The position numbers and the translations under genes were made by a program. Source: Telmatospirillum sp. (lineage in GTDB: Bacteria > Pseudomonadota > Alphaproteobacteria > Rhodospirillales > Magnetospirillaceae). Taken from it: DNA of 64,000 nt. Of this stretch, positions 19,735-32,057 are shown piece after piece (the first letter of the stretch is position 1; each line of letters opens with the position of its first letter). The notes below the pieces were generated by a model. It was not told the origin of the DNA and did no database searches. It saw only the letters and a program-made list of their open reading frames with translations. The stretch covers positions 35,767 to 99,766 of the forward strand of contig WASQ01000126.1 in NCBI GenBank assembly GCA_009712185.1. The letters are read 5' to 3'.

Positions 19735-22107
19735 ATGGCCAACGCCAGTCTGTTGACGCTGCGCATCGAAGGCATGGACTGCGGGTCCTGCGGGATCAAG
19801 ATCGAAAACGCGTTGAACCGCCTGCCGGGAATCGATGCCGTTCGCCTGAACTTTCTGGCTCAGATCCTGACCTGTTCCCTGGACGAAAGCCGGACCCCGC
19901 GCAGCCGGGTGGAGAAGGAAATCCGCGCCCTGGGATTCACGCCTTTTCCTCTATCCTCTCCGGATACCCCGGAAGATCGCGACACGCCGGACAGCCCGCC
20001 GGGCTCAGATCAGGGCGAGGGATGCGGCCACAAGCATGAGCACGGGCATGAGCACGGGCATGAGCATGAGCATGAGAATGGGCATGGGCATGGGCATCCC
20101 GGAGGTCATGCCCATGGTGGCTGCTGCCATGGCGACGACTGCCGGACGGAAGGCCGGAAAACCGCGGGGGCGCAGAAGGCCATCCCGTCACCGGCCGCTC
20201 CCGCCTGGTGGTCCACGGCGAAGGGACGACAGGCGCTGGTCAGCGGCGTTCTGCTGGCGGCCGCCTATGGCCTCTCCCTGGTCTGGCCGCAGCCCTGGAT
20301 GTTCGCCGCCGCCGCCCTGATCGGCGTTCTTCCGGTGGCCCGTCACGCCCTGGCGGGAATCAGGACGGGAACGCCCTTCGGCATTGAAACATTGATGGTG
20401 GTCGCGGTCGCCGGTGCCATCGCGATTGGCGAGACGGAGGAGGCGGCGGTCGTCGTATTCCTGTTTTCGGTGGGGGAGCTTCTGGAAGGGATCGCAGCCG
20501 GACGCGCCAGGGCGGGTATCGCCTCCCTGGTCAGCCTCATTCCGCAAACGGCGCGCCGCCGGCGGGGAGAGACGATCGAGACGATCCCGGCCGACCGGCT
20601 TGCTGTCGGGGACATCGTGCTCGTCAGTCCGGGCGAACGCGTGCCGTCGGATGGCATTGTCATCAGGGGCGACTCCGATGTCGATGAAGCCGCGATCACC
20701 GGGGAATCCACCCCGGTCACCAAGGGGGCCGGCGCACCTGTCTATGCCGGCAGTATCAATGCCAACGGCAGCCTGGAGATCGAAATCACCCGTGCGGCGG
20801 CGGACAACACGATCTCAAGGATCGTTCAACTGGTCGCCGAAGCCCAGGCGGCGAAAGCGCCGACCGCCCGCGCGATCGAACGGTTCAGCCGCTGGTATAC
20901 GCCGGCGGCCATGATCGTGGCCCTGCTGGTTGTCACGGTCCCGCCCCTGGTGCTGGGCGCCCCCTGGACGGTCTGGATCTATCGCGGGCTGTCCGTCCTC
21001 CTGATTTCCTGCCCCTGCGCCCTGGTGATCTCGACACCGGCCGCCATCGCGTCGGGTCTGACCGGCGCGGCCAGGCGCGGCCTGCTGATCAAGGGCGGGC
21101 AGGCGCTGGAGATGCTGGGACAGATCAGGACCGTCAGTTTCGACAAGACCGGCACGCTGACCGAGGGACGCCCCCGCATCACGGGGCTGTTCCCCGTCGG
21201 CGCCGACGGCGACGAGGTGCTGGTCAAGGCCGCCGCCGTGGAACAGGGATCCAGCCACCCCCTCGGCCGGGCCATCGTTGCCGAGGCCCGGTCGCGCGGT
21301 CTTTCGGTTCCCGAAGCGGAGGACCGCGCGGCGCTTCCCGGCAAGGCCGTCACGGGCCGCCTGGAGGGGAGGCTGATCTCGGTCGGCTCGCCCCGTCATT
21401 CCTCCCCGCTCGCCGGGATCGGAACCGCCCAGGATGGAGGCGCAGACGGGTTCGCGACCTTGCCCGACGATGTGGCCCGGACCCTGGAAAACCAGGAAAC
21501 CGCCGGACAGACGGTCGTTCTGGTCCGGGAGGACGGTCGCCTGCTGGGCCTGATCGCGCTTCGCGACGAACCGCGCTCCGATGCCCGCGAAGCGCTGGCC
21601 GCGCTCCGGTCGCTTGCGATCCGTCCGGTCATGCTGACCGGAGACAACGCCCGGACGGCCGCGGCGATCGCCCGCGATCTGGCGATCGACGCCCGGGCCG
21701 AACTGATGCCCGATGGCAAAAGAGCGGTGATCGCCGACCTTGTGGCCGAGGCCCCGGTGGCCATGGTGGGGGACGGGATCAATGACGCGCCCGCCCTTGC
21801 CGCGGCCTCGGTCGGAATAGCGATGAGCGGAGGCACCGATGTGGCGCTGGAGACAGCCGACGTGACGCTGATGCACAACCGCATCCTGGGTGTCGCCGAA
21901 CTGATCGCTCTTTCGCGTGCCACGATCGGCGTGATCCGCCAGAACATCGGTGTCACGCTGGCGCTGAAATGTCTTGTCCTGGTGACCGCCCTGATCGGGA
22001 TCACGCCGCTCTGGATGGCGATTCTCGCCGACACGGGCGCCACCGTCCTTGTCACCGCCAATGCGCTCAGGCTGATCCGGTTCCGCTGGAACGCCATGCC
22101 GGCCTGA
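19735..22107 (+). CDS. zntA: Heavy-metal translocating P1B-type ATPase (ZntA/CadA type)
   Basis: The 790-residue pump has one N-terminal HMA domain (GMDCGSCG, C16 and C19). A His-rich linker follows (about residues 99-140: repeated HEHGH units, then GGCCHGDDC), then six to eight membrane helices. The transmembrane metal site is SCPCAL (C426-P-C428), phosphorylation is at D470 in DKTGTLTEG, the HP motif is SSHPLG, and the hinge is GDGINDAPAL. CPC with His-rich N termini is typical of the Zn/Cd/Pb-exporting P1B-2 group, agreeing with the divergent CadR/PbrR-like regulator. It is about 60 residues longer than E. coli ZntA, due to the His-rich linker. It should export divalent soft metals from the cytoplasm. 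Confidence 0.93.
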   Translation: MANASLLTLRIEGMDCGSCGIKIENALNRLPGIDAVRLNFLAQILTCSLDESRTPRSRVEKEIRALGFTPFPLSSPDTPEDRDTPDSPPGSDQGEGCGHKHEHGHEHGHEHEHENGHGHGHPGGHAHGGCCHGDDCRTEGRKTAGAQKAIPSPAAPAWWSTAKGRQALVSGVLLAAAYGLSLVWPQPWMFAAAALIGVLPVARHALAGIRTGTPFGIETLMVVAVAGAIAIGETEEAAVVVFLFSVGELLEGIAAGRARAGIASLVSLIPQTARRRRGETIETIPADRLAVGDIVLVSPGERVPSDGIVIRGDSDVDEAAITGESTPVTKGAGAPVYAGSINANGSLEIEITRAAADNTISRIVQLVAEAQAAKAPTARAIERFSRWYTPAAMIVALLVVTVPPLVLGAPWTVWIYRGLSVLLISCPCALVISTPAAIASGLTGAARRGLLIKGGQALEMLGQIRTVSFDKTGTLTEGRPRITGLFPVGADGDEVLVKAAAVEQGSSHPLGRAIVAEARSRGLSVPEAEDRAALPGKAVTGRLEGRLISVGSPRHSSPLAGIGTAQDGGADGFATLPDDVARTLENQETAGQTVVLVREDGRLLGLIALRDEPRSDAREALAALRSLAIRPVMLTGDNARTAAAIARDLAIDARAELMPDGKRAVIADLVAEAPVAMVGDGINDAPALAAASVGIAMSGGTDVALETADVTLMHNRILGVAELIALSRATIGVIRQNIGVTLALKCLVLVTALIGITPLWMAILADTGATVLVTANALRLIRFRWNAMPA

Positions 22108-22176: not shown

Positions 22177-22557
22177 TCATAGGGGATCAATGCGGGTGGG
22201 ATCGATAATCAGCACCACGCCGTCCGCGTCCAGGGCCAGCGCAGCCAATCCCGGCAGGCGGGTCCGGGCAGCCAGAAGGACCGGCAGGGGATGAATGGAC
22301 GCCGCGGGGAGGCTGTCGACACGGACGTCCCCGGCGAACTCCAGAAGCCGCTGCCCGCCCCCCATCGAAACGTCAAGAAGGCAGCGGCCGGCAGCGCCGC
22401 CGCCAGCCAGTCCGAGCCAGCTCTCGACCGACAGTTCCCGGTCCGGGACCGCAGGGCGCATGGCCAGCACATGGCGCGCCTCGATCGCGAAGCGGGCACC
22501 GGCGGCCTCGAAACGGACAACCCGTAACGCGTCCCCGTCCGACACGATCCTGGTCAC
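22177..22557 (-). CDS. Small CheW-like protein, last gene of the chemosensory operon
   Basis: The 126-residue product starts at a GTG that overlaps the stop of the preceding cheW (GTGA), so translation is coupled. It reads VVRFEAAGARFAIEARHVLA, then a variable middle, LPVLLAARTRLPGLAALALD and a final ADGVVLIIDPTRI. This follows the beta-strand order of the CheW fold but is shorter and divergent. In Wsp-type operons two CheW proteins (WspB and WspD) couple receptor and kinase, and this would be the second. Its identity rests on fold pattern and operon position. A specialised partner of the diguanylate cyclase is an alternative. Confidence 0.6.
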   Translation of the reverse strand: MTRIVSDGDALRVVRFEAAGARFAIEARHVLAMRPAVPDRELSVESWLGLAGGGAAGRCLLDVSMGGGQRLLEFAGDVRVDSLPAASIHPLPVLLAARTRLPGLAALALDADGVVLIIDPTRIDPL

Positions 22558-23075
22558 CCCAGACCCGCACGGTAGGCCTCGAACATCCGTCCCAGGCCCA
22601 GCACCGTCACAACCCGATCGCGATAGCTCATGATTCCGGTGACGACGGCACGGCGGCTTTCCGGCACGGTCTGCGGCGGCGCCTGAATCCGGCTTTGCGG
22701 GACATCCATCACTTCCTCGACCGCATCGACCCGGACGCCGGACCGCATGCCTCCCGCCTCGCATAACAGAATCCGCCGCCCCCGGTCCGCCGGCGGCGCG
22801 ATCCCCAGCAGGCCGCGCAGGTCGATGACCGTCTCGATGTCGCCGCGAACATTGATGACGCCGTCCATCGAGGCCGGACAACCCGGAAGATAGAACACCG
22901 GACAATCCGGCAGGACCTCGCGGACGAGGTCTCCGGGCACGGCGAACCATTCCTCACCAAGGGCGACGACCACCAGCTTCACCTCGGGTTCATCGACCGA
23001 AACGACGGTACCGTTCCGCTTCTCACGATCGGCGAGGATCCGGTCCAGCGACAGCTCACCGCTCGCCTCAGCCAT
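22554..23075 (-). CDS. cheW: CheW-type coupling protein
   Basis: The 173-residue protein has an N-terminal extension of about 30 residues, then a CheW domain: VKLVVVALGEEWFAVPGDLV, LPGCPASMDGVINVRGDIET, VIDLRGLLGI, and a final YRDRVVTVLGLGRMFE. CheW proteins link the receptor tip to the kinase P5 domain. The ATG at 23075 follows GGAGGATATC and overlaps the end of the diguanylate cyclase gene by eight bases. The next gene overlaps its own stop by four. Confidence 0.9.
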   Translation of the reverse strand: MAEASGELSLDRILADREKRNGTVVSVDEPEVKLVVVALGEEWFAVPGDLVREVLPDCPVFYLPGCPASMDGVINVRGDIETVIDLRGLLGIAPPADRGRRILLCEAGGMRSGVRVDAVEEVMDVPQSRIQAPPQTVPESRRAVVTGIMSYRDRVVTVLGLGRMFEAYRAGLG

Positions 23076-24837
23076 GTCCGATATCCTCCCTGCGTCCCAC
23101 CGCCACCGATGGAGCGGCGGGCGCCATCCTCTCCCCGGACGGCACGCCGCCCGGATCGCCGTCCCCGGCATACCCTTCGCAGACCCGGTTTCGTCCTGAC
23201 CTTTTGGCCCGGTACAGCGCCTGATCGGCCGTTTCCATCAGATGGTCCGAGGGGACCGCCGGAAAACCGGCGATGCCCGCGCTGAAGGTGCAGGAAAATC
23301 CCTGCTCCCCCGCCTGGAACGACAGACGGCCGAAATCCTCGCGCAGGCCGTCGATGATGGTGCGCGCTTCGGCCGGGCCGGTGTCCTGCATGATCACAGC
23401 GAACTCCTCGCCGCCATAGCGCCCGACCAGATCGGAGTGGCGCAGTCGCTGCTGCAACAGCCTGGACAGCGCGACCAGCACCTGATCCCCGGCCGGGTGA
23501 CCGAAACTGTCGTTGATTTCCTTGAAGTGGTCGATGTCCAGCATCGCAAGACTGACCTTGCGCGACTCCCGCGCAGCCGTCGCCAGGGTCGCCGAAAGAT
23601 ACTGCGACAGGAAAGTATGATTGAAGAGGCCGGTCAAGCCGTCCCGGACCATCAGGGACCGCAGGGTCCTCATTCTTTCGGCCCGCACCGCCACCGCGCT
23701 GATCAGGTCGTCGGGCTGGATCGGCTTGGTCAAAAATCCCTCGGCCCCGACCTTCAGGGCCGAAACCTGCATCACCTTGTTGGTCTCGTTGGACAGGAAC
23801 ACGATCGGCAGGCTGAGAAAATCGGGAATCTGCCGGATGATTTGCGCCAGATCGCGGCCACTACATACCGGCATATACATGTCCATCAGAACCAGATCCG
23901 GACGGAATTCGGCCAGCACGGACAGAATCGACGACGGTTCGTGCAACAGCCGCACGGTCATCCCCGCCTCCGACAGGATCAGTCCGTGGTACTGTGCAAC
24001 CTCCGGTTCGTCGTCGACGACAAGAACGCGATAGGGCTCCGGCTTCTCACGGTCGGTCAGCACATCCAGGGTCTCGACCAGTTCGGTCGCCTTGACCGGC
24101 TTGGTGAAATAGGCCTGCCCCCCCGCCTTGACCGCGCGCAACCGCGCCTCGAAATCCTTGCGGGCCGACAGGAACACGACCGGCGGCGGCGAAGGAAGTT
24201 CGCGGCGCATGCTTTCGATGATCTCGGTCCCGGCGTTCATGCCGTTCGGAAACATGATATCCATGATCACGGCGTCCGGCGTTTTGACGATCACCGCCGC
24301 GCGCAGGGCTCCGGTATCGGCAAAGGACACCACCTCATAGCCGAAACAGACCAGTTGCGCGGCAATCTGCTGTCCCGCCAGATCGTCGTCGTCGCACAGG
24401 AAGATCCGCTTTCCGTGCGACATTCCGGGATGGCTTCCCCCCACGGCGGCCAGCGTCTGCGCGTCGCCGCTTTCCGCGTTGGCGAGGATGGTTTCCGCCG
24501 CCAGAAGTTCGATCCGGTCAAAAAGGGCGATCAGTTCGTCGGCGATCCGGCCCGCATCAGAGAGAGGCCCGCCCCCGTCCCGGAACGCGGTGATCACCGC
24601 CTGACCGATCCCGGCCTGAAAACTGATCTCCTCGAACCCGAAGGAGGCTCCGGTTCCCTTGATGGTATGAAAGATCCGGTGCACCTCGTCGAGCGCGTCG
24701 GAAGAGACGGCCAGGGACGCCGAAAGGGTCCGGCCGCTCGCCGCCATCTGCGGCAGGCGGTCGAGGAAGGACTGCCTCAGTTGCCGCACCTTGGCGCGCA
24801 AGCTCGATTTCGGCCCGTCTGTTGTGAGGGGGGTCAT
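23068..24837 (-). CDS. Hpt-REC-REC-GGDEF diguanylate cyclase, output of the chemosensory operon
   Basis: The 589-residue protein has four domains. Residues 1-115 are an Hpt domain, with the phosphoryl-accepting His57 in FHTIKGTGAS. REC1 is about 142-255 (FLCDDDD, VIMDIMFP, FTKPV) and REC2 about 268-385 (VLVVDDEPE, VLMDMYMP, LTKPI); both keep the phospho-Asp and Lys. The GGDEF domain is about 395-560, with active-site GGEEF and an intact inhibitory site RHSD five residues upstream. It should make cyclic-di-GMP from GTP and be feedback-inhibited. The WspR output of Pseudomonas has one REC and no Hpt, so this version can both receive and relay phosphate. The start overlaps the REC gene's stop by ATGA. 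Confidence 0.92.
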   Translation of the reverse strand: MTPLTTDGPKSSLRAKVRQLRQSFLDRLPQMAASGRTLSASLAVSSDALDEVHRIFHTIKGTGASFGFEEISFQAGIGQAVITAFRDGGGPLSDAGRIADELIALFDRIELLAAETILANAESGDAQTLAAVGGSHPGMSHGKRIFLCDDDDLAGQQIAAQLVCFGYEVVSFADTGALRAAVIVKTPDAVIMDIMFPNGMNAGTEIIESMRRELPSPPPVVFLSARKDFEARLRAVKAGGQAYFTKPVKATELVETLDVLTDREKPEPYRVLVVDDEPEVAQYHGLILSEAGMTVRLLHEPSSILSVLAEFRPDLVLMDMYMPVCSGRDLAQIIRQIPDFLSLPIVFLSNETNKVMQVSALKVGAEGFLTKPIQPDDLISAVAVRAERMRTLRSLMVRDGLTGLFNHTFLSQYLSATLATAARESRKVSLAMLDIDHFKEINDSFGHPAGDQVLVALSRLLQQRLRHSDLVGRYGGEEFAVIMQDTGPAEARTIIDGLREDFGRLSFQAGEQGFSCTFSAGIAGFPAVPSDHLMETADQALYRAKRSGRNRVCEGYAGDGDPGGVPSGERMAPAAPSVAVGRREDIGHG

Positions 24838-25223
24838 TGCCTCGCGGCCCCCCGGCCGGCCATGGCCGCCGCTATGGCGTCGATCAGCGATGTTTCCAGC
24901 GTGAAGTCCTTGGCAAGGCAGCCATCCAGGCGCGGCTCCGCCGCCAGCACCGGCCCGGGGTCATCGCCGGTCAACAGGATGAAGGGAATTCCGTCTCCCT
25001 GATCCCTCAGGTTCCGGAACAGATCGACGCCGCTCACCAGCGGCATATGCATGTCCGAAACCACGAGATCGAAAGGATCCCCCCCCTTCTGACGCCCCTC
25101 GTCCAGACGGTCCGCGGCCTCGACCGCGTCACCGGCCAGAACGACGGTATGACCCGCATCCTCCAGGACCGCCGACGTCATCTCCCCGGCCAGCGAATCG
25201 TCGTCCACCACCAATATTTTCAT
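24834..25223 (-). CDS. Single-domain response regulator (CheY-like)
   Basis: The 129-residue receiver begins MKILVVDDDSLAGEM and has the phospho-Asp in LVVSDMHMP, Thr in FILLTGDD and Lys in GCLAKDF. The alpha/beta repeats are complete and there is no output domain. It lies between the hybrid CheA (24 bp away) and the Hpt-containing cyclase (4-bp overlap). It could carry phosphate from the kinase to the cyclase Hpt domain, or act as a phosphate sink. Confidence 0.9.
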   Translation of the reverse strand: MKILVVDDDSLAGEMTSAVLEDAGHTVVLAGDAVEAADRLDEGRQKGGDPFDLVVSDMHMPLVSGVDLFRNLRDQGDGIPFILLTGDDPGPVLAAEPRLDGCLAKDFTLETSLIDAIAAAMAGRGAARQ

Positions 25224-25247
25224 GGCTCACCGAGCCCCCTCTCCCTC

Positions 25248-27413
25248 TCAGCCCAGAAGACTGTGCAGTGTGTCCACCAGACTGTTCTGATCAAAATCAC
25301 CTTTGACGATGTAGGCATCGGCGCCCACCTCGATGCCGCGCCGCTTGTCCTCCTCCTTCTGCCGGGAGGTGACAATGATGATCGGTGTGTCGCGATAGCG
25401 CTCATCCTGCCGCAGGGCGGCCGTCAAGGAGAAGCCGTCCATATGGGGCATCTCGACGTCCGTCAGAATGGCGTCGAACGCTTCGCTCTGCGCCTTGGCC
25501 AGTCCGTCACGCCCGTCTTCCGCCAGGGTCACGACATAGCCATGCGCTTCCAGCACGTCCTTTTCGATTTCACGGGTGTTGAGAGAATCGTCGACCACCA
25601 GGATATGAGCGCCTTTCAGGGCGGTCTCGTCCGAAGCCACCCTGACCGCGCCGTCGCGGGCGCGGGCCGCCAGAGACAACAGGGCCGGCGTATGGAGAAT
25701 GCTGATCAGACGATTGCGCCCGTCCATCACCATCCCGGCGACCAGCGGCAGATGGCGCAGATGGGCGGGCAGCGGCTTGATCACCATGTCGCGCTCGTCC
25801 AGCAGGTCGTCGACCGCGAGCGCCAGCTTGCCGTTACGGACCGACACCACCACGAGAAGAACGGTCTCCCGCCGTTTTCCCTGATCCTGAAGCCCCAGAA
25901 GGGAGGCCAGCGGAACAACCGGCACGAATTCATTGTCGAGCACGACCGCTTCACGCCCGGCCGCCAGCAACAGCCGGCCGGCCGGGACCTCGATCAACTG
26001 GGCCACATACTGGCCGGTAAAGCCGAAGCTCTCACCGCCGGCGGAGACGAGCAGCACCCGCATGACCGCCAGCGACAACGGCAGACGCAGCATGAAGGTC
26101 GTCCCCCGGCCGGGCTCCGTATCGATCGAGATCACGCCTTGCATTTCGTCGACGATGGTGCGCTTCACCACGTCCATTCCGACACCGCGACCGGAAATCT
26201 CCGTGATGATCGAACTGGTGCTGAAACCGGGGGCGAAGATCAGATCGATCAGTTCCGATTCCGACATCGCTCCCGCCTGGGCGGCGGTGATCAGCCCCTT
26301 GCGCAGGGCCTTGTCCCTGATATCGGCGATGGCCAGTCCCCGTCCGTCATCGGCAATGCCGATGACCACCCAGCCGCCATCCTGCCTCGCCTCGATCCGG
26401 ATCGTTCCATGACGGGGCTTGCCGGCGGCGATCCGCTGGTCCGGCGACTCGATCCCGTGATCGACCGCATTGCGCAGAATATGCAAAATCGGATCGCCGA
26501 GGCCGTCGATCAATTGCCGGTCCAGTTCGATCTCCGTCCCGGTCACGACGCAGTCGACGTCCTTGTCGAGCGACCGCCCGAGATCCCGGATCAACCGCGC
26601 CGCCGGGTCGAGGACGACGGCCAGCGGCAGCATCCGCATCACCAGAGCCTTGGCGTGCAACTCCTCCATCAGCCGTTCCTGGATCGAGACATCGTCGCGC
26701 AGATCCCGGATGAAGCCGGTGATCTGGGGAACCGCCGGACCGTCAGTCATCCGCCGGCCGATCTGGCGGATGTCCACCAGACGCTGGCGCAGCCGCGCAT
26801 GGCTTGACACCACCTCGCCCATCAGACGGATCAGTTCGTCCAGCCGGACCAGCGGCACCCGCACTGTTTCCGACGATTTGAGGCGGATTTCGGGGGTCTC
26901 CACCGATGGCGGTTCGGCGGTCGCGGCCGCAGGCGCCGGCTCCGGCAGCGCCGCGGCCGGAGCGGCCGTGTCTCCACCGGATGCCGGCGCAGAAGGGGTT
27001 TCGCCGGCCGGGGACCCGGCGCCGGGCCCCGGCTGAAGGACCTCGCCCAGGGCGGCGATCAGATCGGGGCCTGCGGCGGCCGGTTCGCGTCCTTCAGCGA
27101 CGGCCTCCACCTGCGCCGCCACGGCGTCCACCGCACGCTGCAACAATCGCCGCAGGTCGCCGTCAAACAGCAGCACGCCATCCCGCAGCGCACCCAGGAT
27201 ATCCTCTGTCCGGTGAGCCAGATCGGCGATGGCCATCAGCTTCAGCATCCGCGCCGATCCCTTGACGGTGTGGGCGGAACGGAACAGCGCATTCACGGTC
27301 TCGCCGTCGGCGGGATTGCCGGCGAGCACGGTCAGCCCCTCGTCCAGGCGCCGCAGATGGTCCCGGGATTCCTCGACAAAGCGGGCGATGAAGCGTTTAA
27401 CGTCCAGCGCCAT
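25248..27413 (-). CDS. CheA-type hybrid histidine kinase (Hpt-dimer-ATPase-CheW-REC)
   Basis: The 721-residue kinase has a P1 Hpt domain with His48 in FRSAHTVKGSARM, then an Ala/Pro/Glu-rich linker (about 115-180). The P3 dimerisation and P4 ATPase domains follow, with ILRNAVDHGIE (N box), DDGRGL (G1), GRGVGMDVVK and GRGTTFMLRLPLSLA. A P5 CheW-like domain and a C-terminal receiver (about 605-721: ILVVDDSLN, ILTDVEMPHMDGF) complete it. This is the WspE/FrzE-type architecture of non-flagellar chemosensory systems. It starts three bases after the CheR-TPR gene, with GGGAGA as ribosome-binding site. It should phosphorylate its own REC, the free REC, the CheB receiver and the cyclase. Confidence 0.93.
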   Translation of the reverse strand: MALDVKRFIARFVEESRDHLRRLDEGLTVLAGNPADGETVNALFRSAHTVKGSARMLKLMAIADLAHRTEDILGALRDGVLLFDGDLRRLLQRAVDAVAAQVEAVAEGREPAAAGPDLIAALGEVLQPGPGAGSPAGETPSAPASGGDTAAPAAALPEPAPAAATAEPPSVETPEIRLKSSETVRVPLVRLDELIRLMGEVVSSHARLRQRLVDIRQIGRRMTDGPAVPQITGFIRDLRDDVSIQERLMEELHAKALVMRMLPLAVVLDPAARLIRDLGRSLDKDVDCVVTGTEIELDRQLIDGLGDPILHILRNAVDHGIESPDQRIAAGKPRHGTIRIEARQDGGWVVIGIADDGRGLAIADIRDKALRKGLITAAQAGAMSESELIDLIFAPGFSTSSIITEISGRGVGMDVVKRTIVDEMQGVISIDTEPGRGTTFMLRLPLSLAVMRVLLVSAGGESFGFTGQYVAQLIEVPAGRLLLAAGREAVVLDNEFVPVVPLASLLGLQDQGKRRETVLLVVVSVRNGKLALAVDDLLDERDMVIKPLPAHLRHLPLVAGMVMDGRNRLISILHTPALLSLAARARDGAVRVASDETALKGAHILVVDDSLNTREIEKDVLEAHGYVVTLAEDGRDGLAKAQSEAFDAILTDVEMPHMDGFSLTAALRQDERYRDTPIIIVTSRQKEEDKRRGIEVGADAYIVKGDFDQNSLVDTLHSLLG

Positions 27414-27416
27414 GGC

Positions 27417-28949
27417 CTATCTCCCGGCCTTGGCGGCGTGACGCGGCTGAAGATGGCGTTCGCACAGGAACACGACCTCCGGCACAGGAAGATTGAGAGG
27501 CAGCAGCAGCCCGCCGTCCGGATCCGGATTGGTCCTGATCTGTTGCAAGGCGACACGGTAGCACCGTTGTGCCTGCGCCGGAACATCCTCGCCCCGATAC
27601 AGATCGCCCAGGTAAAAATGCACCGGCCAGCAGACCTGCCGGCAGTAGACCGCCTGGCGGAACCAGCGGATCGCCTCCGCCGGGCGCCCGTCCCATTTTG
27701 CCGCCAGCCCCAGCAGCACCATGGCGTCAACGGACCATTCGTCGGCCTGCAATGCCCGATCCGCCAGCAAAGCCGCCCCTGAAAAATCACGGGCCATCAA
27801 TTGGCCATATCCCTCCAGCACCAGAAGCGCCGGATCATCCGGAACCGGCGGCGTCGCGTCGCCCGCAGCCGCCCGTCCGCGGGATAACAGAACCCTGGCC
27901 TGTTCAAAGTGTTTCTCACGCAAAAGGGAACGGATCCGGTCCAGGTCCGGCGGCATTTGCGCGGGCGACGACGGCGCGACGGCGGCATGCGGGGCGAAGA
28001 CCAACGGGGATGCGAGTCCTCCGATCGGCAGAACCCGGCCCGGCATGGAGGAGGTGTCGCTCCCGGCCTCCACCGGCATCGCGGGCGGGCGGGCAACGAC
28101 GTGCGGCAGAGGTGGGACGACCGCCTGACGGCCGGGATCACGGGCGAAGTGGAACGCGCCGTCCTCCTCCACCATGGTCAGCACACCCAAATCGTTCGCC
28201 AGCGTTTCGGCCGCCCCCGTGATCAGCAGACCCCGGTGCGACATCGCATCGCGCAATGTCGCCAGAATTTCCCGTCGCGTCGGTTCATCGAAATAAATCG
28301 AGACATTCCGGAAAAAAACGACGTCAAGATCCTCGAATCCCGGTGGCAGGCTGCCCGCCCTCAGATTGACATGATGGAAACGAACCATCGACGCGACCTG
28401 GGGATCGATGGCATATCCACCGTCCGACATGCGACGGAAATAACGCCCCCGCAACGGCGCCGGCAGAGCGCGGAACGAAAACGGGCTGAAGCGCCCTTCC
28501 CGGGCCCGGGCCAGGGCATAATGATCGATGTCGCCGGCGACGATCTCAACCAGACGGACCACCGATTCGCCATAGCGTTCCAGAAGGGCGATGGCGATGG
28601 AATAAGGTTCTTCACCGGTCGAACAGCCGGCTGAGAAAATGCGGACGGGAAGACGGGCGTTCTCCTCCGCCAGCATTCTGGGCAACAGACGGTCCACCAG
28701 CAGGTCGAGCTGCTCGGGTTCACGAAAAAAATAGGTTTCATTGATGGTCAGAAGACTGATGAATTCCTGGAACTCATCCTCCCGGGCCATCAGCGTTGCA
28801 AAATAGAGCGCCGGCGCACCGGCTCCGGTCGCCGCCATGCGACGGTCGATGGCCTCCACCAGTGTCTCCTCGGCCAGTCCGTCGAGGACCAGACCGCACC
28901 GCTCGCGGATCATCTCCTTGAAGGGGACCAGATCGACGGGGGGCGTCAT
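27417..28949 (-). CDS. cheR: CheR-type receptor methyltransferase with C-terminal TPR-like region
   Basis: The 510-residue protein has a CheR domain (about 1-265): INETYFFREPEQLDLL, then the SAM motif SAGCSTGEEPYSIAIAL and VFFRNVSIYFD. After a Pro-rich linker, residues about 370-500 are helical repeats of TPR type (ARVLLSRGRAAAG, ALLADRALQADEWSVDAMVL, AIRWFRQAVYCRQ, YLGDLYRGED). This matches WspC/FrzF-type CheR, where the TPR part replaces the receptor pentapeptide as docking device. The receptor in this operon indeed lacks an NWETF-type tail. The ATG at 28949 overlaps the cheB stop (ATGA). Confidence 0.92.
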   Translation of the reverse strand: MTPPVDLVPFKEMIRERCGLVLDGLAEETLVEAIDRRMAATGAGAPALYFATLMAREDEFQEFISLLTINETYFFREPEQLDLLVDRLLPRMLAEENARLPVRIFSAGCSTGEEPYSIAIALLERYGESVVRLVEIVAGDIDHYALARAREGRFSPFSFRALPAPLRGRYFRRMSDGGYAIDPQVASMVRFHHVNLRAGSLPPGFEDLDVVFFRNVSIYFDEPTRREILATLRDAMSHRGLLITGAAETLANDLGVLTMVEEDGAFHFARDPGRQAVVPPLPHVVARPPAMPVEAGSDTSSMPGRVLPIGGLASPLVFAPHAAVAPSSPAQMPPDLDRIRSLLREKHFEQARVLLSRGRAAAGDATPPVPDDPALLVLEGYGQLMARDFSGAALLADRALQADEWSVDAMVLLGLAAKWDGRPAEAIRWFRQAVYCRQVCWPVHFYLGDLYRGEDVPAQAQRCYRVALQQIRTNPDPDGGLLLPLNLPVPEVVFLCERHLQPRHAAKAGR

Positions 28950-30058
28950 GGCACCCCCCCAACCGGCAGCCGCGGCAGACCGGCAAGGAGATCGGCCAGG
29001 GCGTCGAGCGGCAGAACCCGCTGCACCCATCCCTTTTCGATCGCGATGGCGTTCATCCCGAAGATCACCGAACTGGCCTCGTCCTGGGCCAGGGTCATGC
29101 CGCCGGCGGCCCGGATTGCCTCCATGCCGCTGACACCATCCGATCCCATTCCGGTCAGGATCAACCCCATCGCCTGCCGTCCGCAGGCCTGCGCGACACT
29201 GGTCAGCAGCGCGTCGCAACTGGGCCGGTAGACCTGCCCGGGCTGGCGGGGAGAAAGGTCAATCCGCCGGAACTTCGAGACCGTCATATTGTGTTCGGAC
29301 GGAGACAGATAGACGACGCCGGGCGTCAGGGACTCCCCCGCCCGTCCCAGCCGGACCGGCAGACGGGTGATCGATGCCAGCCAGTCGACCAGTCCCGGGG
29401 CAAAACCGTCGGCGATATGCTGGGCGATGACGATGGGGCTTGCGAATCCGGGCGACAGCCGGCCCAGGATATGGGCCAGCGCCTGCGGCCCGCCGGTCGA
29501 GGCCGCGATGGCGACCACCCGCTCCGCCCCGGATGCCCCGGCCGCTGTCACCGGGGCCGACGATTGCGGGGCCAGGGACTGCGGGGTAAGGGACTGCGGG
29601 GTAAGGGACTGCGGAGACCGCGGCGCGTCGGCCGTGTCCGGCGACACCCGGCGGATCCGCACATGGGTGATCACAGGAATGCTGGCCACCAGACGCGCCT
29701 TGTCGACAAAATCGGCAATGTCCGACGCCGAAACACCCGGTTTGCTGACCACCTCGATGGCGCCCCGGGCGACCGCGGTATAGGCCTTCTGGGCATCGGC
29801 GACACTGGAGACCACGAGGATAGGGACGGCCTTCACCCCCATGATCTCCTCGATGGCATCAAGCCCGCCCATCACCGGCATCTCAAGATCCATGGTGATC
29901 AGATCGGGCCTCAGCCTCTGGGCCTGGATCACCGCGTCGCGGCCGTTGCCGGCCTCGGCGACAACCTGGAAGCCTCCATCATCCTCAAAAATGGACCGCA
30001 GCATCGCACGGGCAAGACTGCTGTCGTCAACGATCAGGACGCGGATGGGAGCGGCCAT
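28946..30058 (-). CDS. cheB: CheB-type receptor methylesterase (REC + methylesterase)
   Basis: The 370-residue protein has a receiver (residues 1-120: IRVLIVDDSSLARAM, LITMDLEMPVMGG, VVSKP). A linker containing repeated SLTPQ units follows, then the methylesterase domain (about 185-355) with its Ser in AIAASTGGPQAL, His in IVIAQHIADGF and the late Asp region ILTGMGSDGVSGM. It removes methyl groups from receptor glutamates and is activated by phosphorylation. It is the WspF equivalent. The gene ends in a 4-bp overlap with cheR and starts 13 bp after the receptor gene ends. Confidence 0.95.
   Translation of the reverse strand: MAAPIRVLIVDDSSLARAMLRSIFEDDGGFQVVAEAGNGRDAVIQAQRLRPDLITMDLEMPVMGGLDAIEEIMGVKAVPILVVSSVADAQKAYTAVARGAIEVVSKPGVSASDIADFVDKARLVASIPVITHVRIRRVSPDTADAPRSPQSLTPQSLTPQSLAPQSSAPVTAAGASGAERVVAIAASTGGPQALAHILGRLSPGFASPIVIAQHIADGFAPGLVDWLASITRLPVRLGRAGESLTPGVVYLSPSEHNMTVSKFRRIDLSPRQPGQVYRPSCDALLTSVAQACGRQAMGLILTGMGSDGVSGMEAIRAAGGMTLAQDEASSVIFGMNAIAIEKGWVQRVLPLDALADLLAGLPRLPVGGVP
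29575..29619 (-). repeat. 15-bp tandem repeat in the cheB linker
   Basis: About three copies of a GGGACTGCGGGGTAA unit (plus-strand reading) encode the repeated PQSLT peptides between the receiver and the catalytic domain. As an in-frame 15-bp repeat it can change linker length without a frameshift. Confidence 0.8.
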
Positions 30059-30071
30059 CGGCCAGATCCCC

Positions 30072-32057
30072 TCAGGCCGTCTGAATGGTGGAGCGCAAAG
30101 AGCGGGTGGTTGTGCCGGCACCCTCTCCGCCGGCCCCGCCATCGAGCTTGAAATGATCGACGAGATCGTCGAGTTCGGCCGACATGCGGGCCATATCGCG
30201 ACTGATCTCCGAGATGCGCGCGATCGACTGCGCCGTGTGACTGCTGGCCGACACGATCTCGCGCAGCGCCACCACCACCTGATTGCTGGCGGTCTTCTGC
30301 TGCTGGGTCGACAGCGAGATCTGCTGCGCCGCATTGGTCGTCTGGCGCGCCGCCCCGACCATCGTGCCCAGCAGCGTCGCGGTGTTGGCGGTCGCCGCCA
30401 TGCCGTCCGCGGTTCCCGTCACACCTTTTTCCGACGTGATGATCAGACGGCTGATGGAATCCTGAATCTGGCTGATCTTGGTTTCGATCTCGCCGGTGGA
30501 ATCGGTGACGCTGTCGGCAAGCCGGCGGATCTCAGCGGCGACGACGCCGAACCGCCGTCCGGCCTCGCCGGCGCTGGCCGCCTCAAGCGCGGCGTTGAAG
30601 GCGATCAGCTTGGTCTGGTCGGCAATGGTGTTGATGATGCCCATCACCTTGCTGATTTCCTTGGACCGGGTGCCCAGTTCCATGATCTCGGCGAGGCTGG
30701 TCTGGTTGTCCTCCTGGATCTCCCTCATCTTCGTCATGACCAGATCCATCGCCTGGGCCCCCTTCTTGCTTTCCTCCCAGGTCTGATTGGCGATGTCGAC
30801 GACGGATTTCGAATGTTCGGCGATCTGGGTGGAGGAGGCCGACAGTTCCTCCGTGGTGGAGGTGATTTCGGCAACAGAAGCGGACATCTGGCTCGACGTG
30901 GCCGCCTGCCCTTCCACCGCGCCGGAAATCTCCTGCGCGGCCTTATGCACGGCGACGGCATGCGACCGGAGTTCGACCACCAGGCTGTGCAGTTGTGAGC
31001 GCATGTCCTGGGCTGCGTGCCCCAGGCGCCCGACCTCGTCCGCGCCTTTCAGGGCGATGTCCACCGACAGATCACCACGCGCCACCCGGTGAACGCCGTC
31101 AACCAGGATCTGGAGGCGGCCGGTGATGTTGCGCGCCGCCAGAGCAGCCAGCGACAGCCCCACGGCCAGGGCGATCGCCGCCATCAAAAGCGCGGTGGAC
31201 CGCGCATCCGACAGGGCCCCGGCGAAACGGCCGCGATCCTGCGCAAGCTCGATCACGCCGATCCGGCGGCCGGAGAAATCGACCAGCGGCGCCGCATAGA
31301 CCGCACGCCCCGCGCCCGCCCCGGTCTGAACCTCGGCAAACAGGGGCTCGGAGGAAAGAACCTTGGCGATCTTCGCCGCTGGCAACAGGGATGCCCCCCC
31401 CATGGTGGAGGCGAAGGTGGTCATTTTATCGCCTTCAAACAGATAAAGGGCGACATCAACGTCGCGCCTGGCCTTGAACGCGTCGAAGAAACCCTGGCCG
31501 AAGCCGGCGCCGAACTCGACGGACCCCAGCGGGCGCCCTCCCGGCCCGGTCACGGGAACCACCCCCCGGATCCCCAGGCCGGCGACGCCGCCCTCAAGCC
31601 CCTGGGTCGGCTTATGGGTCTGGTTGGTACGAACCACCGTCTGGCGGAAAGAGGAGAGGTCGTCGCCGAACCGCTCAGGCTTGTGAACGCGCAGAAGGGA
31701 GACGGCCGACGGCGTATGGAACTGGAACTGGTCGATCCCGAACTCCCCCGCCAGTGCCTGGAAAGCCGGCTGATACAGGGAAAGCAGTCCCGCCCGGTCG
31801 TTGGCGGCGACCCGGTCCTGTGTCACCGACAGGGAGGCCACCAGCGTCGCCAAAGCCTCCGACATGCGGCTTTCCTGCGCAATGCTGTCCGACAGGGCGC
31901 GGAAATGTCCCTCCAGCTCACTATGTTCGGCGGTCGTAATCACCGTCTCCATCGTGCGCAGATTGCTGTAGGTCAGCACGGCCGCGACCAGAAGGATCGC
32001 CCCACCGGTCGTCAGCATCAGCTTCGTGCCGAGGTGGAGATTATGGAACAAGCTCAT
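30072..32057 (-). CDS. Methyl-accepting chemotaxis protein, receptor of the chemosensory operon
   Basis: From the ATG at 32057 the protein has 661 residues. A membrane helix lies at about 8-32 (KLMLTTGGAILLVAAVLTYS), then a large periplasmic double-Cache-like sensor (about 33-295). A second membrane helix (TALLMAAIALAVGLSLAALA), HAMP (ILVDGVHRVARGDLSVDI) and the signalling domain follow. Its tip reads IADQTKLIAFNAALEAASAG, then GRRFGVVAAEIRRLADS. It differs from the [17 protein letters not shown] tip of the 6.8 kb receptor, consistent with use by a separate kinase array. The frame stays open to a GTG at 32204, but those 49 extra residues are hydrophilic with no ribosome-binding site. It is the first gene of the operon. 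Confidence 0.92.
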   Translation of the reverse strand: MSLFHNLHLGTKLMLTTGGAILLVAAVLTYSNLRTMETVITTAEHSELEGHFRALSDSIAQESRMSEALATLVASLSVTQDRVAANDRAGLLSLYQPAFQALAGEFGIDQFQFHTPSAVSLLRVHKPERFGDDLSSFRQTVVRTNQTHKPTQGLEGGVAGLGIRGVVPVTGPGGRPLGSVEFGAGFGQGFFDAFKARRDVDVALYLFEGDKMTTFASTMGGASLLPAAKIAKVLSSEPLFAEVQTGAGAGRAVYAAPLVDFSGRRIGVIELAQDRGRFAGALSDARSTALLMAAIALAVGLSLAALAARNITGRLQILVDGVHRVARGDLSVDIALKGADEVGRLGHAAQDMRSQLHSLVVELRSHAVAVHKAAQEISGAVEGQAATSSQMSASVAEITSTTEELSASSTQIAEHSKSVVDIANQTWEESKKGAQAMDLVMTKMREIQEDNQTSLAEIMELGTRSKEISKVMGIINTIADQTKLIAFNAALEAASAGEAGRRFGVVAAEIRRLADSVTDSTGEIETKISQIQDSISRLIITSEKGVTGTADGMAATANTATLLGTMVGAARQTTNAAQQISLSTQQQKTASNQVVVALREIVSASSHTAQSIARISEISRDMARMSAELDDLVDHFKLDGGAGGEGAGTTTRSLRSTIQTA

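Follow-up and report, generated by a model that had tools for sequence, protein, structure and literature searches.

An eight-gene operon of Telmatospirillum sp. matches the chemosensory cluster 2 type of Halomonas titanicae, with a diguanylate cyclase as its likely output

The closest described relative of the locus reported here is "chemosensory cluster 2" of Halomonas titanicae KHS3, published in 2018, whose eight genes stand in the order MCP-CheB-CheR(TPR)-CheA(REC)-CheY-DGC-CheW-CheW3, where MCP is the chemoreceptor and DGC a diguanylate cyclase (PMC5907407). As described there, it encodes a chemoreceptor of the 40H length class, CheB2, CheR2 with TPR repeats, CheA2 with a REC domain and without P2, CheY2, a cyclase with one Hpt and two REC domains, CheW2 and an aberrant CheW3 whose second subdomain is incomplete. 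That paper counts 83 cyclases of this architecture, finds the same gene order in 16 of 18 inspected contexts, records the type in Rhodospirillales, makes the comparison with wsp and calls the function of the cluster speculative pending experiments (PMC5907407). We analysed a 64,000-nucleotide stretch, hereafter the window, within one contig (C84) of the 6.1 Mb genome of Telmatospirillum sp. (labelled G000), and in it an operon of eight minus-strand genes at positions 22177 to 32057, arranged nearly without intergenic space. It is almost certain that this operon belongs to the cluster 2 type. Taken as a whole, it is probably best explained as a self-contained array of that type, the output of which would be synthesis of cyclic di-GMP (c-di-GMP).

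Domain calls were made with Pfam; labels beginning with G denote genomes of the same family, and those beginning with L denote fetched loci. The first gene (30072..32057, with an ATG start at 32057) encodes a chemoreceptor of 661 residues with dCache_3, HAMP and MCPsignal matches and the tip ADQTKLIAFNAALEA. It is followed by a CheB of 370 residues (28946..30058), consisting of REC and methylesterase domains with the phospho-acceptor Asp and the catalytic Ser, His and Asp intact, and by a CheR-TPR methyltransferase of 510 residues (27417..28949), in which the CheR model scored over its cut-off, the CheR_N model under its own, and the model for the C-terminal TPR repeats slightly under. The CheA-REC hybrid kinase of 721 residues (25248..27413) showed by Pfam the layout Hpt(P1)-P3-P4-P5-REC and no P2 match, and its His48 and Asp652 are conserved. 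A free REC of 129 residues resembling CheY2 (24834..25223) has an intact Asp57. The diguanylate cyclase of 589 residues (23068..24837) is built as Hpt-REC1-REC2-GGDEF according to Pfam, conservation and a predicted model, and its His57, Asp193, Asp319, GGEEF motif and RxxD I-site are all intact. A CheW coupling protein of 173 residues (22554..23075) and a small, CheW3-like protein of 126 residues with a GTG start and a CheW fold in its predicted model (22177..22557) complete the operon. Gaps of 13, 3 and 24 bp separate receptor from CheB, CheR from CheA and CheA from the free REC, and overlaps of 4, 4, 8 and 4 bp join CheB to CheR, the free REC to the cyclase, the cyclase to CheW and CheW to the small CheW. 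An earlier sequence-only reading of this DNA had given eight genes in one direction with gaps of 3-24 bp, overlaps of 4-8 bp and the same end coordinates, and open frames, junctions and Pfam reproduced all of this exactly.

The gene set and order are thus those of cluster 2 of H. titanicae KHS3, and the two systems further share a cyclase with intact Hpt, REC1 and REC2 sites, a 40H receptor, CheR-TPR, a CheA-REC without P2 and a small aberrant CheW (PMC5907407). When the features of cluster 2 were looked for in the operon, we found the gene order, the cyclase phospho-acceptors together with the A- and I-sites, the aberrant small CheW, a 40H receptor set apart from others and a common CheA clade. 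The differences lie in sequence distance and in the sensor: the 28 Halomonas/Vreelandella CheAs were 51-55% identical to this CheA over the best segment, with one broken one at 64%, and the sensor domain here is dCache_3, which 25 of 46 receptors of the type match. The distinct new chemosensory class proposed from the sequence alone had therefore to be given up, as the same operon had been described in H. titanicae (PMC5907407). The operon type is already known, and through it the receptor probably controls the level of c-di-GMP.

The sequence-only reading had also taken the chemosensory operon to be Wsp-like and non-flagellar, and a diguanylate cyclase to be its likely output; both points are supported. 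Wsp and the operon share a 40H receptor, two CheW-fold proteins, CheR, CheA-REC, CheB and a GGDEF output protein containing REC, and they would work alike. As that reading had likewise noted for the Wsp operon of Pseudomonas, they are nevertheless different in build. The Wsp order in the megaplasmid of Cupriavidus metallidurans CH34 (L190) is MCP-CheW-CheR-CheW-CheA-CheB-REC/GGDEF, from which the present order differs; the operon has an extra free REC, and its cyclase carries an Hpt and a second REC, unlike the single-REC GGDEF protein WspR. Moreover, Wsp possesses two complete CheWs, WspB and WspD (PMC5907407), whereas the second one here is shortened to 126 residues and gave no Pfam CheW match.

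The gene neighbourhood, whose conservation had been set beforehand as a check on the reading, proved to be conserved. A CheA query in the species-genome collection yielded 209 stretches that fit a pattern, 172 of which encode a relative, and the best 80 of these were used. Going by their record titles, 28 of the 80 come from Halomonas or Vreelandella, so the loci are not independent; the other titles point to alpha-, beta-, gamma- and deltaproteobacteria, and many of these records are metagenome bins with unsure labels. The complete eight-gene set occurred in order in 56 of the 80 CheA-matched loci, and CheA, free REC and cyclase in order in 64. Because so many loci keep all eight genes in order, the grouping is not a product of chance. 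The 24 loci that do not have all eight genes in order comprise cut contigs, broken or variant operons, two (L123 and L141) that are complete but for an undetected small CheW, and ten loci with unrelated CheA types, none of which had an Hpt-REC-REC-GGDEF cyclase beside the CheA. Within the family, a cyclase query found a counterpart of at least 47% identity in 15 of 54 genomes, and in one genome a contig end truncates it. In 12 of the 15, CheA, REC and cyclase follow one another in this order in the fetched region; of the remaining loci, one has CheA and REC with the cyclase running off the contig, one contig ends inside CheA, and the cluster of G034 is altered. Two further genomes of the family, G016 and G019, have a cyclase homologue at 45% identity, next to which neither CheA nor CheB nor CheR was detected. 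Outside the family but within the same order, long cyclase homologues at 35-45% identity were present in 12 of 44 genomes, and CheA, CheB or CheR was detected beside none of the 11 that were fetched in wider regions.

Some loci depart from the common form. In a Telmatospirillum bin (L086:141-5639), a CheR fragment at the contig start is followed by a receptor, CheA and small CheW; no free REC or cyclase was detected in this cluster, and the downstream frames that were scanned contained no signalling output domain. Split or shortened operon genes, reflecting either decay or sequencing errors, were seen in Halomonas sulfidaeris (L149), in Vreelandella (L110 and L132) and on a Halomonas replicon (L193). 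The last holds the entire operon with the cyclase frame split in two, and Azospirillum argentinense (L192) has an orphan cyclase homologue; both came from a plasmid search with the cyclase covering at least 5000 records, in which two regions were inspected among the 15 matches listed.

In trees, the CheAs of the operon type formed one clade with 100/100 support, which held 25 of the 48 rows in one core tree and 14 of the 38 rows in another with further references. The clade includes the Halomonas/Vreelandella rows L103, L106 and L119 in the 48-row tree and L106 and L119 in the 38-row tree, the H. titanicae CheA2 sequence itself being absent from both. Membership of the CheA in a flagellar class was another check set beforehand; in both trees the operon-type CheAs stood apart from the references for F5 and F7, the labelled flagellar classes in these trees, other F classes having no labelled reference. 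We take the E. coli CheA reference to be of class F7. The F5 label follows an architecture rule (PMC10782961) and the assignment of cheOp1 to F5 (PMC12442639), and an MSR-1-like neighbour of E. coli CheA in the tree would be cheOp4, which is F7 (PMC12442639); in MSR-1 both cheOp1 and cheOp4 have been linked to aerotaxis (PMC12442639). L190, the single reference with the full Wsp order, fell outside the operon-type clade, on a long branch of uncertain place in the 38-row tree, where R_L154, R_L148 and R_L191 likewise sit on long branches. The joint placement of the operon type beside L146, L148, L152, L154 and L191 was weak (78/46). Since multidomain response regulators and a CheR-TPR in the cluster mark the alternative cellular functions (ACF) class (PMC3447774), and the operon has both, ACF would be its natural class label, a label given by markers. 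The Flm system of Comamonas was also considered as a relative and dropped, as it is described as belonging to the Tfp (type IV pili) class with a single-domain output (PMC8880074).

The receptor appears to serve this array alone. Compared with E. coli Tar (36H), both arms of its cytoplasmic hairpin are longer by 14 residues in the alignment (+14/+14), and on these lengths the receptor is a member of the 40H class. The Wsp receptor of C. metallidurans CH34 has the same 40H arm lengths by alignment. Among seven aligned relatives of the receptor, the C-arm was +14 in all seven and the N-arm +14 in five and +28 or +29 in two. When the signalling half was compared with the own genome, 69 matches were obtained (E 1e-8 or better), of which the receptor itself scored 580 bits and the next one 60 bits at 29% identity. 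Arm lengths were measured for five of the other receptors of the genome, and tip and length of the operon receptor were unlike those of all five. The orphan receptor at 6.8 kb of the window has another tip and another length, so that the separate tip reported by the sequence-only reading was confirmed by alignment. Because the next-best receptor reaches 60 against 580 bits and the 40H length and tip are unlike the others, insulation of the array from the other receptors of the genome is well supported. The genome has four CheA genes in total, on contigs C84, C86, C116 and C137, and C137 also encodes three CheW domains in one frame.

The small protein of 126 residues gave no Pfam match, and its relative in L045 gave a weak CheW match (E 0.023). 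An AlphaFold model made from 28 aligned sequences had a mean predicted local distance difference test score (pLDDT) of 89.5. Along almost all of its length this model matched CheW and also the P5 domain of CheA (Foldseek E 4.9e-06), and with VIA-align the best row reached a Z of 14.0 and a root-mean-square deviation of 2.7 over 123 residues, the first unrelated row having a Z of 3.2. On account of this nearly full-length match, the protein is, judged by its predicted model, a shortened CheW-fold protein. An IHPLP stretch is conserved among its relatives in the 28-sequence alignment.

The conservation of the phospho-sites was counted in alignments of 69 to 73 sequences, over rows with a letter at the position. 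Excluded from the counts were L079-L083 and L155 (same genomes as family loci), L086, L089, L093 and L095 (same genomes or variant), the broken L149 and the ten unrelated CheA loci. His48 of CheA was kept in 71/71, Asp652 of CheA-REC in 73/73 and Asp57 of the free REC in 72/72. In the cyclase, Hpt His57 (71/71), REC2 Asp319 (72/72) and the GGEEF motif and RxxD I-site (71/71) were equally invariant. REC1 Asp193 was retained in 69 of 72 and lost, together with the acidic pocket, in L048, L050 and L051 (genomes G036, G025 and G017). Because the REC1 acceptor is lost in three of 72 sequences and the Hpt His and REC2 Asp in none, the pattern, which is newly found in this analysis, suggests that the signal travels through Hpt and REC2, and we lean towards these two domains carrying activation. 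The predicted cyclase model (mean pLDDT 83.3) shows four Hpt helices (residues 13-122), and the final helix of REC2 (375-397) extends as far as the GGDEF domain. PleD and WspR are among the sequence relatives of the cyclase in the PDB, the former with the REC-REC-GGDEF core and the latter with REC-GGDEF in common. PleD has no Hpt (PMC5907407), whereas the present cyclase has one and keeps the acceptor of the GGDEF-adjacent REC2 throughout. Orphan Hpt-REC-REC-GGDEF homologues with no che genes detected nearby occurred in L053, L055, L057, L058, L059, L061 and L062. All seven kept the Hpt His and REC2 Asp, the aligned REC1 Asp was absent from three, and most of the other orphans had further changes in the REC1 motif.

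The Hpt-REC-REC stretch was also searched in 23 selected genomes of the family, four of which (G017, G025, G036 and, as fragments at contig ends, G034) contain a second copy fused to a kinase. All four copies correspond by homology to the cyclase's input half. The one at L048:12529-14847 (minus strand) had no HisKA match. Those at L070:1344-4154 (plus), L071:11589-14393 (plus) and L072:5819-8059 (minus, cut at the contig end) had a HisKA match and a further REC. All three genomes with REC1 loss (G036, G025 and G017) carry a kinase-fused copy, and REC1 was lost in none of the 11 operon-bearing genomes that have a readable REC1 and no such copy. A Fisher test of this association (3 of 4 against 0 of 12) was set aside, since REC1 is readable in 11 of the 12 and the genomes are not independent. 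In G036 the kinase-fused gene follows the operon, and the copies of G017 and G025 retain the REC1 aspartate. A tentative and, in our view, rather doubtful extension is that the array feeds a true four-step His-Asp-His-Asp relay ending on the cyclase REC2, and that Hpt-REC-REC serves as a transferable input cassette. In one sublineage of the family a duplicate of it would have been joined to a histidine kinase core, with loss of the cyclase REC1 acceptor in three of four such genomes, so that one and the same array may act on both c-di-GMP and a kinase.

For the operon itself we infer each of the phosphotransfer steps, along with the direction of control and the effect on c-di-GMP, and the following course is proposed. 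One dedicated 40H receptor, CheW and the truncated CheW-fold protein, CheA-REC, and an own CheB and CheR-TPR for adaptation would make up the self-contained array. A ligand of the dCache_3 sensor would set autophosphorylation of CheA on His48, and the phosphate would move to an aspartate, either Asp652 of CheA-REC or Asp57 of the free REC. From there it would pass to Hpt His57 of the cyclase and then to REC2 Asp319, whose phosphorylation would dimerise and activate the GGDEF domain. Binding of c-di-GMP at the I-site would limit the product, and REC1 may branch off this path and either tune the signal or drain it. A second, rarely lost Hpt beyond that of CheA makes most sense if an aspartate lies between the two (CheA His to Asp to Hpt His to REC2). 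Very probably the cyclase is the main output. Three other loci have a GGDEF-EAL gene a short way downstream of the operon (L122:15625-18318, L140:15395-18664 and L147:15743-17851); it is possibly the matching c-di-GMP phosphodiesterase, and its position is in keeping with c-di-GMP as the output.

Several observations weigh against this course or against parts of it. The sensor domain varies within the operon type: of the 46 receptors scanned, 25 have dCache_3. No Hpt domain could be detected in the cyclases of L098, L132 and L147, the last of which deviates from the Hpt motif at Lys60; hence the invariance of Hpt His57 rests partly on alignment alone. The three cyclases that lost REC1 belong to one CheA clade and may represent one or two events instead of three. 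G034 has the kinase-fused module and yet an intact cyclase REC1, the kinase-fused copy of G036 is itself without the REC1 aspartate, and two of the four kinase-fused modules are unlinked to the operon. A further caution comes from the Che3 system of R. centenum (CheA3-CheS3-CheY3), which is likewise alphaproteobacterial and non-flagellar and has a CheA-REC, a free REC and a tandem-REC partner (PMC3868531). Phosphotransfer has been measured there: CheA3-REC acts as a phosphate sink, CheA3 phosphorylates REC1 of CheS3 directly, and it is REC2, not REC1, that is without the aspartate (PMC3868531). Its output is a histidine kinase, and its partner has no Hpt (PMC3868531); the kinase-fused Hpt-REC-REC proteins described above resemble CheS3 in layout only. 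Because a CheA-REC can act as a sink and a CheA can reach its partner REC directly, the domain list alone is no proof of a relay. The phosphorelay to the cyclase stated by the sequence-only reading is thus borne out as to intact phospho-sites; given the sink, the direct transfer and the degenerate REC2 of Che3, we regard a true four-step relay and direct transfer from CheA to REC as evenly balanced.

A serious alternative, though the less probable one, is direct two-step control, in which CheA P1 would phosphorylate the cyclase REC2 (or REC1), CheA-REC and the free REC would drain phosphate, and the Hpt would be a reservoir or back-acceptor with no forward relay. Besides the precedent of Che3 for a sink and direct phosphorylation of REC1 (PMC3868531), it is favoured by the CheA itself, which has its own Hpt (P1) and no P2 match, so that a second Hpt is unneeded, and by the three related cyclases in which the Hpt went undetected. 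Against it, the second Hpt His is kept in 71/71, also where REC1 has decayed, which suggests a role on the path, since decay should be more frequent in a domain that is no more than a sink. It is improbable that the free REC is the main output, acting for instance on a motor or a transcription factor, with the cyclase as an auxiliary branch. The free REC, with its Asp57, is as conserved as the cyclase, and in another chemosensory system for biofilms a free REC, FlmD, provides the output by way of SoxR (PMC8880074). On the other side, the REC-REC-GGDEF frame was found in 57/59 non-family and 15/16 family loci scanned; cut contigs account for the three misses, and a few frames are shortened. In addition, no DNA-binding or flagellar protein is encoded among the conserved eight genes.

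It is very improbable that the operon is an accessory system for flagellar chemotaxis and has receptors and CheY pools in common with the genome's other che systems. The genome does have four CheAs and many receptors, and members of the family are motile. Nevertheless, the CheA lies outside the F5 and F7 references, the length and tip of the receptor are unlike those of the five other receptors aligned, and no flagellar gene is among the eight. By Pfam none of the eight genes encodes CheZ, CheD, a flagellar or a DNA-binding protein, so the claim that a CheY/CheZ/CheD-type output is missing holds for CheZ and CheD; it is loose for CheY, as the free REC is a CheY-like single-domain receiver. The array ending on c-di-GMP synthesis stays our preferred explanation.

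The operon is flanked by a convergent gene for a heavy-metal P-type ATPase (19735-22107), whose product carries an HMA domain at its N-terminus and a long run rich in histidine, and by a same-strand peptidase M3 gene 181 bp upstream of the receptor. Horizontal transfer, judged by base composition, gave no signal, the fraction of guanine plus cytosine being 0.645-0.669 in the operon and 0.616-0.689 around it. A promoter scan gave 2 sites where 1.1 were expected, no more than chance would yield. Terminator-like sites numbered 13, more than the 5.8 expected from shuffles, and none of them stood directly after the last operon gene.

Purines are reported to have been studied as ligands of the Halomonas receptor, and no such paper was found in the open-licence literature searched. 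Nor did we find there a phosphotransfer, ligand, phenotype or later mechanism paper for this operon type. The operon type is widespread in Proteobacteria, and its natural variants, namely loss of REC1 in three cyclases with Hpt His and REC2 Asp kept, and the kinase-fused copy, narrow the signal-carrying sites to a few point substitutions. The operon would thereby offer a second, differently wired model beside Wsp for the control of c-di-GMP by a receptor array.

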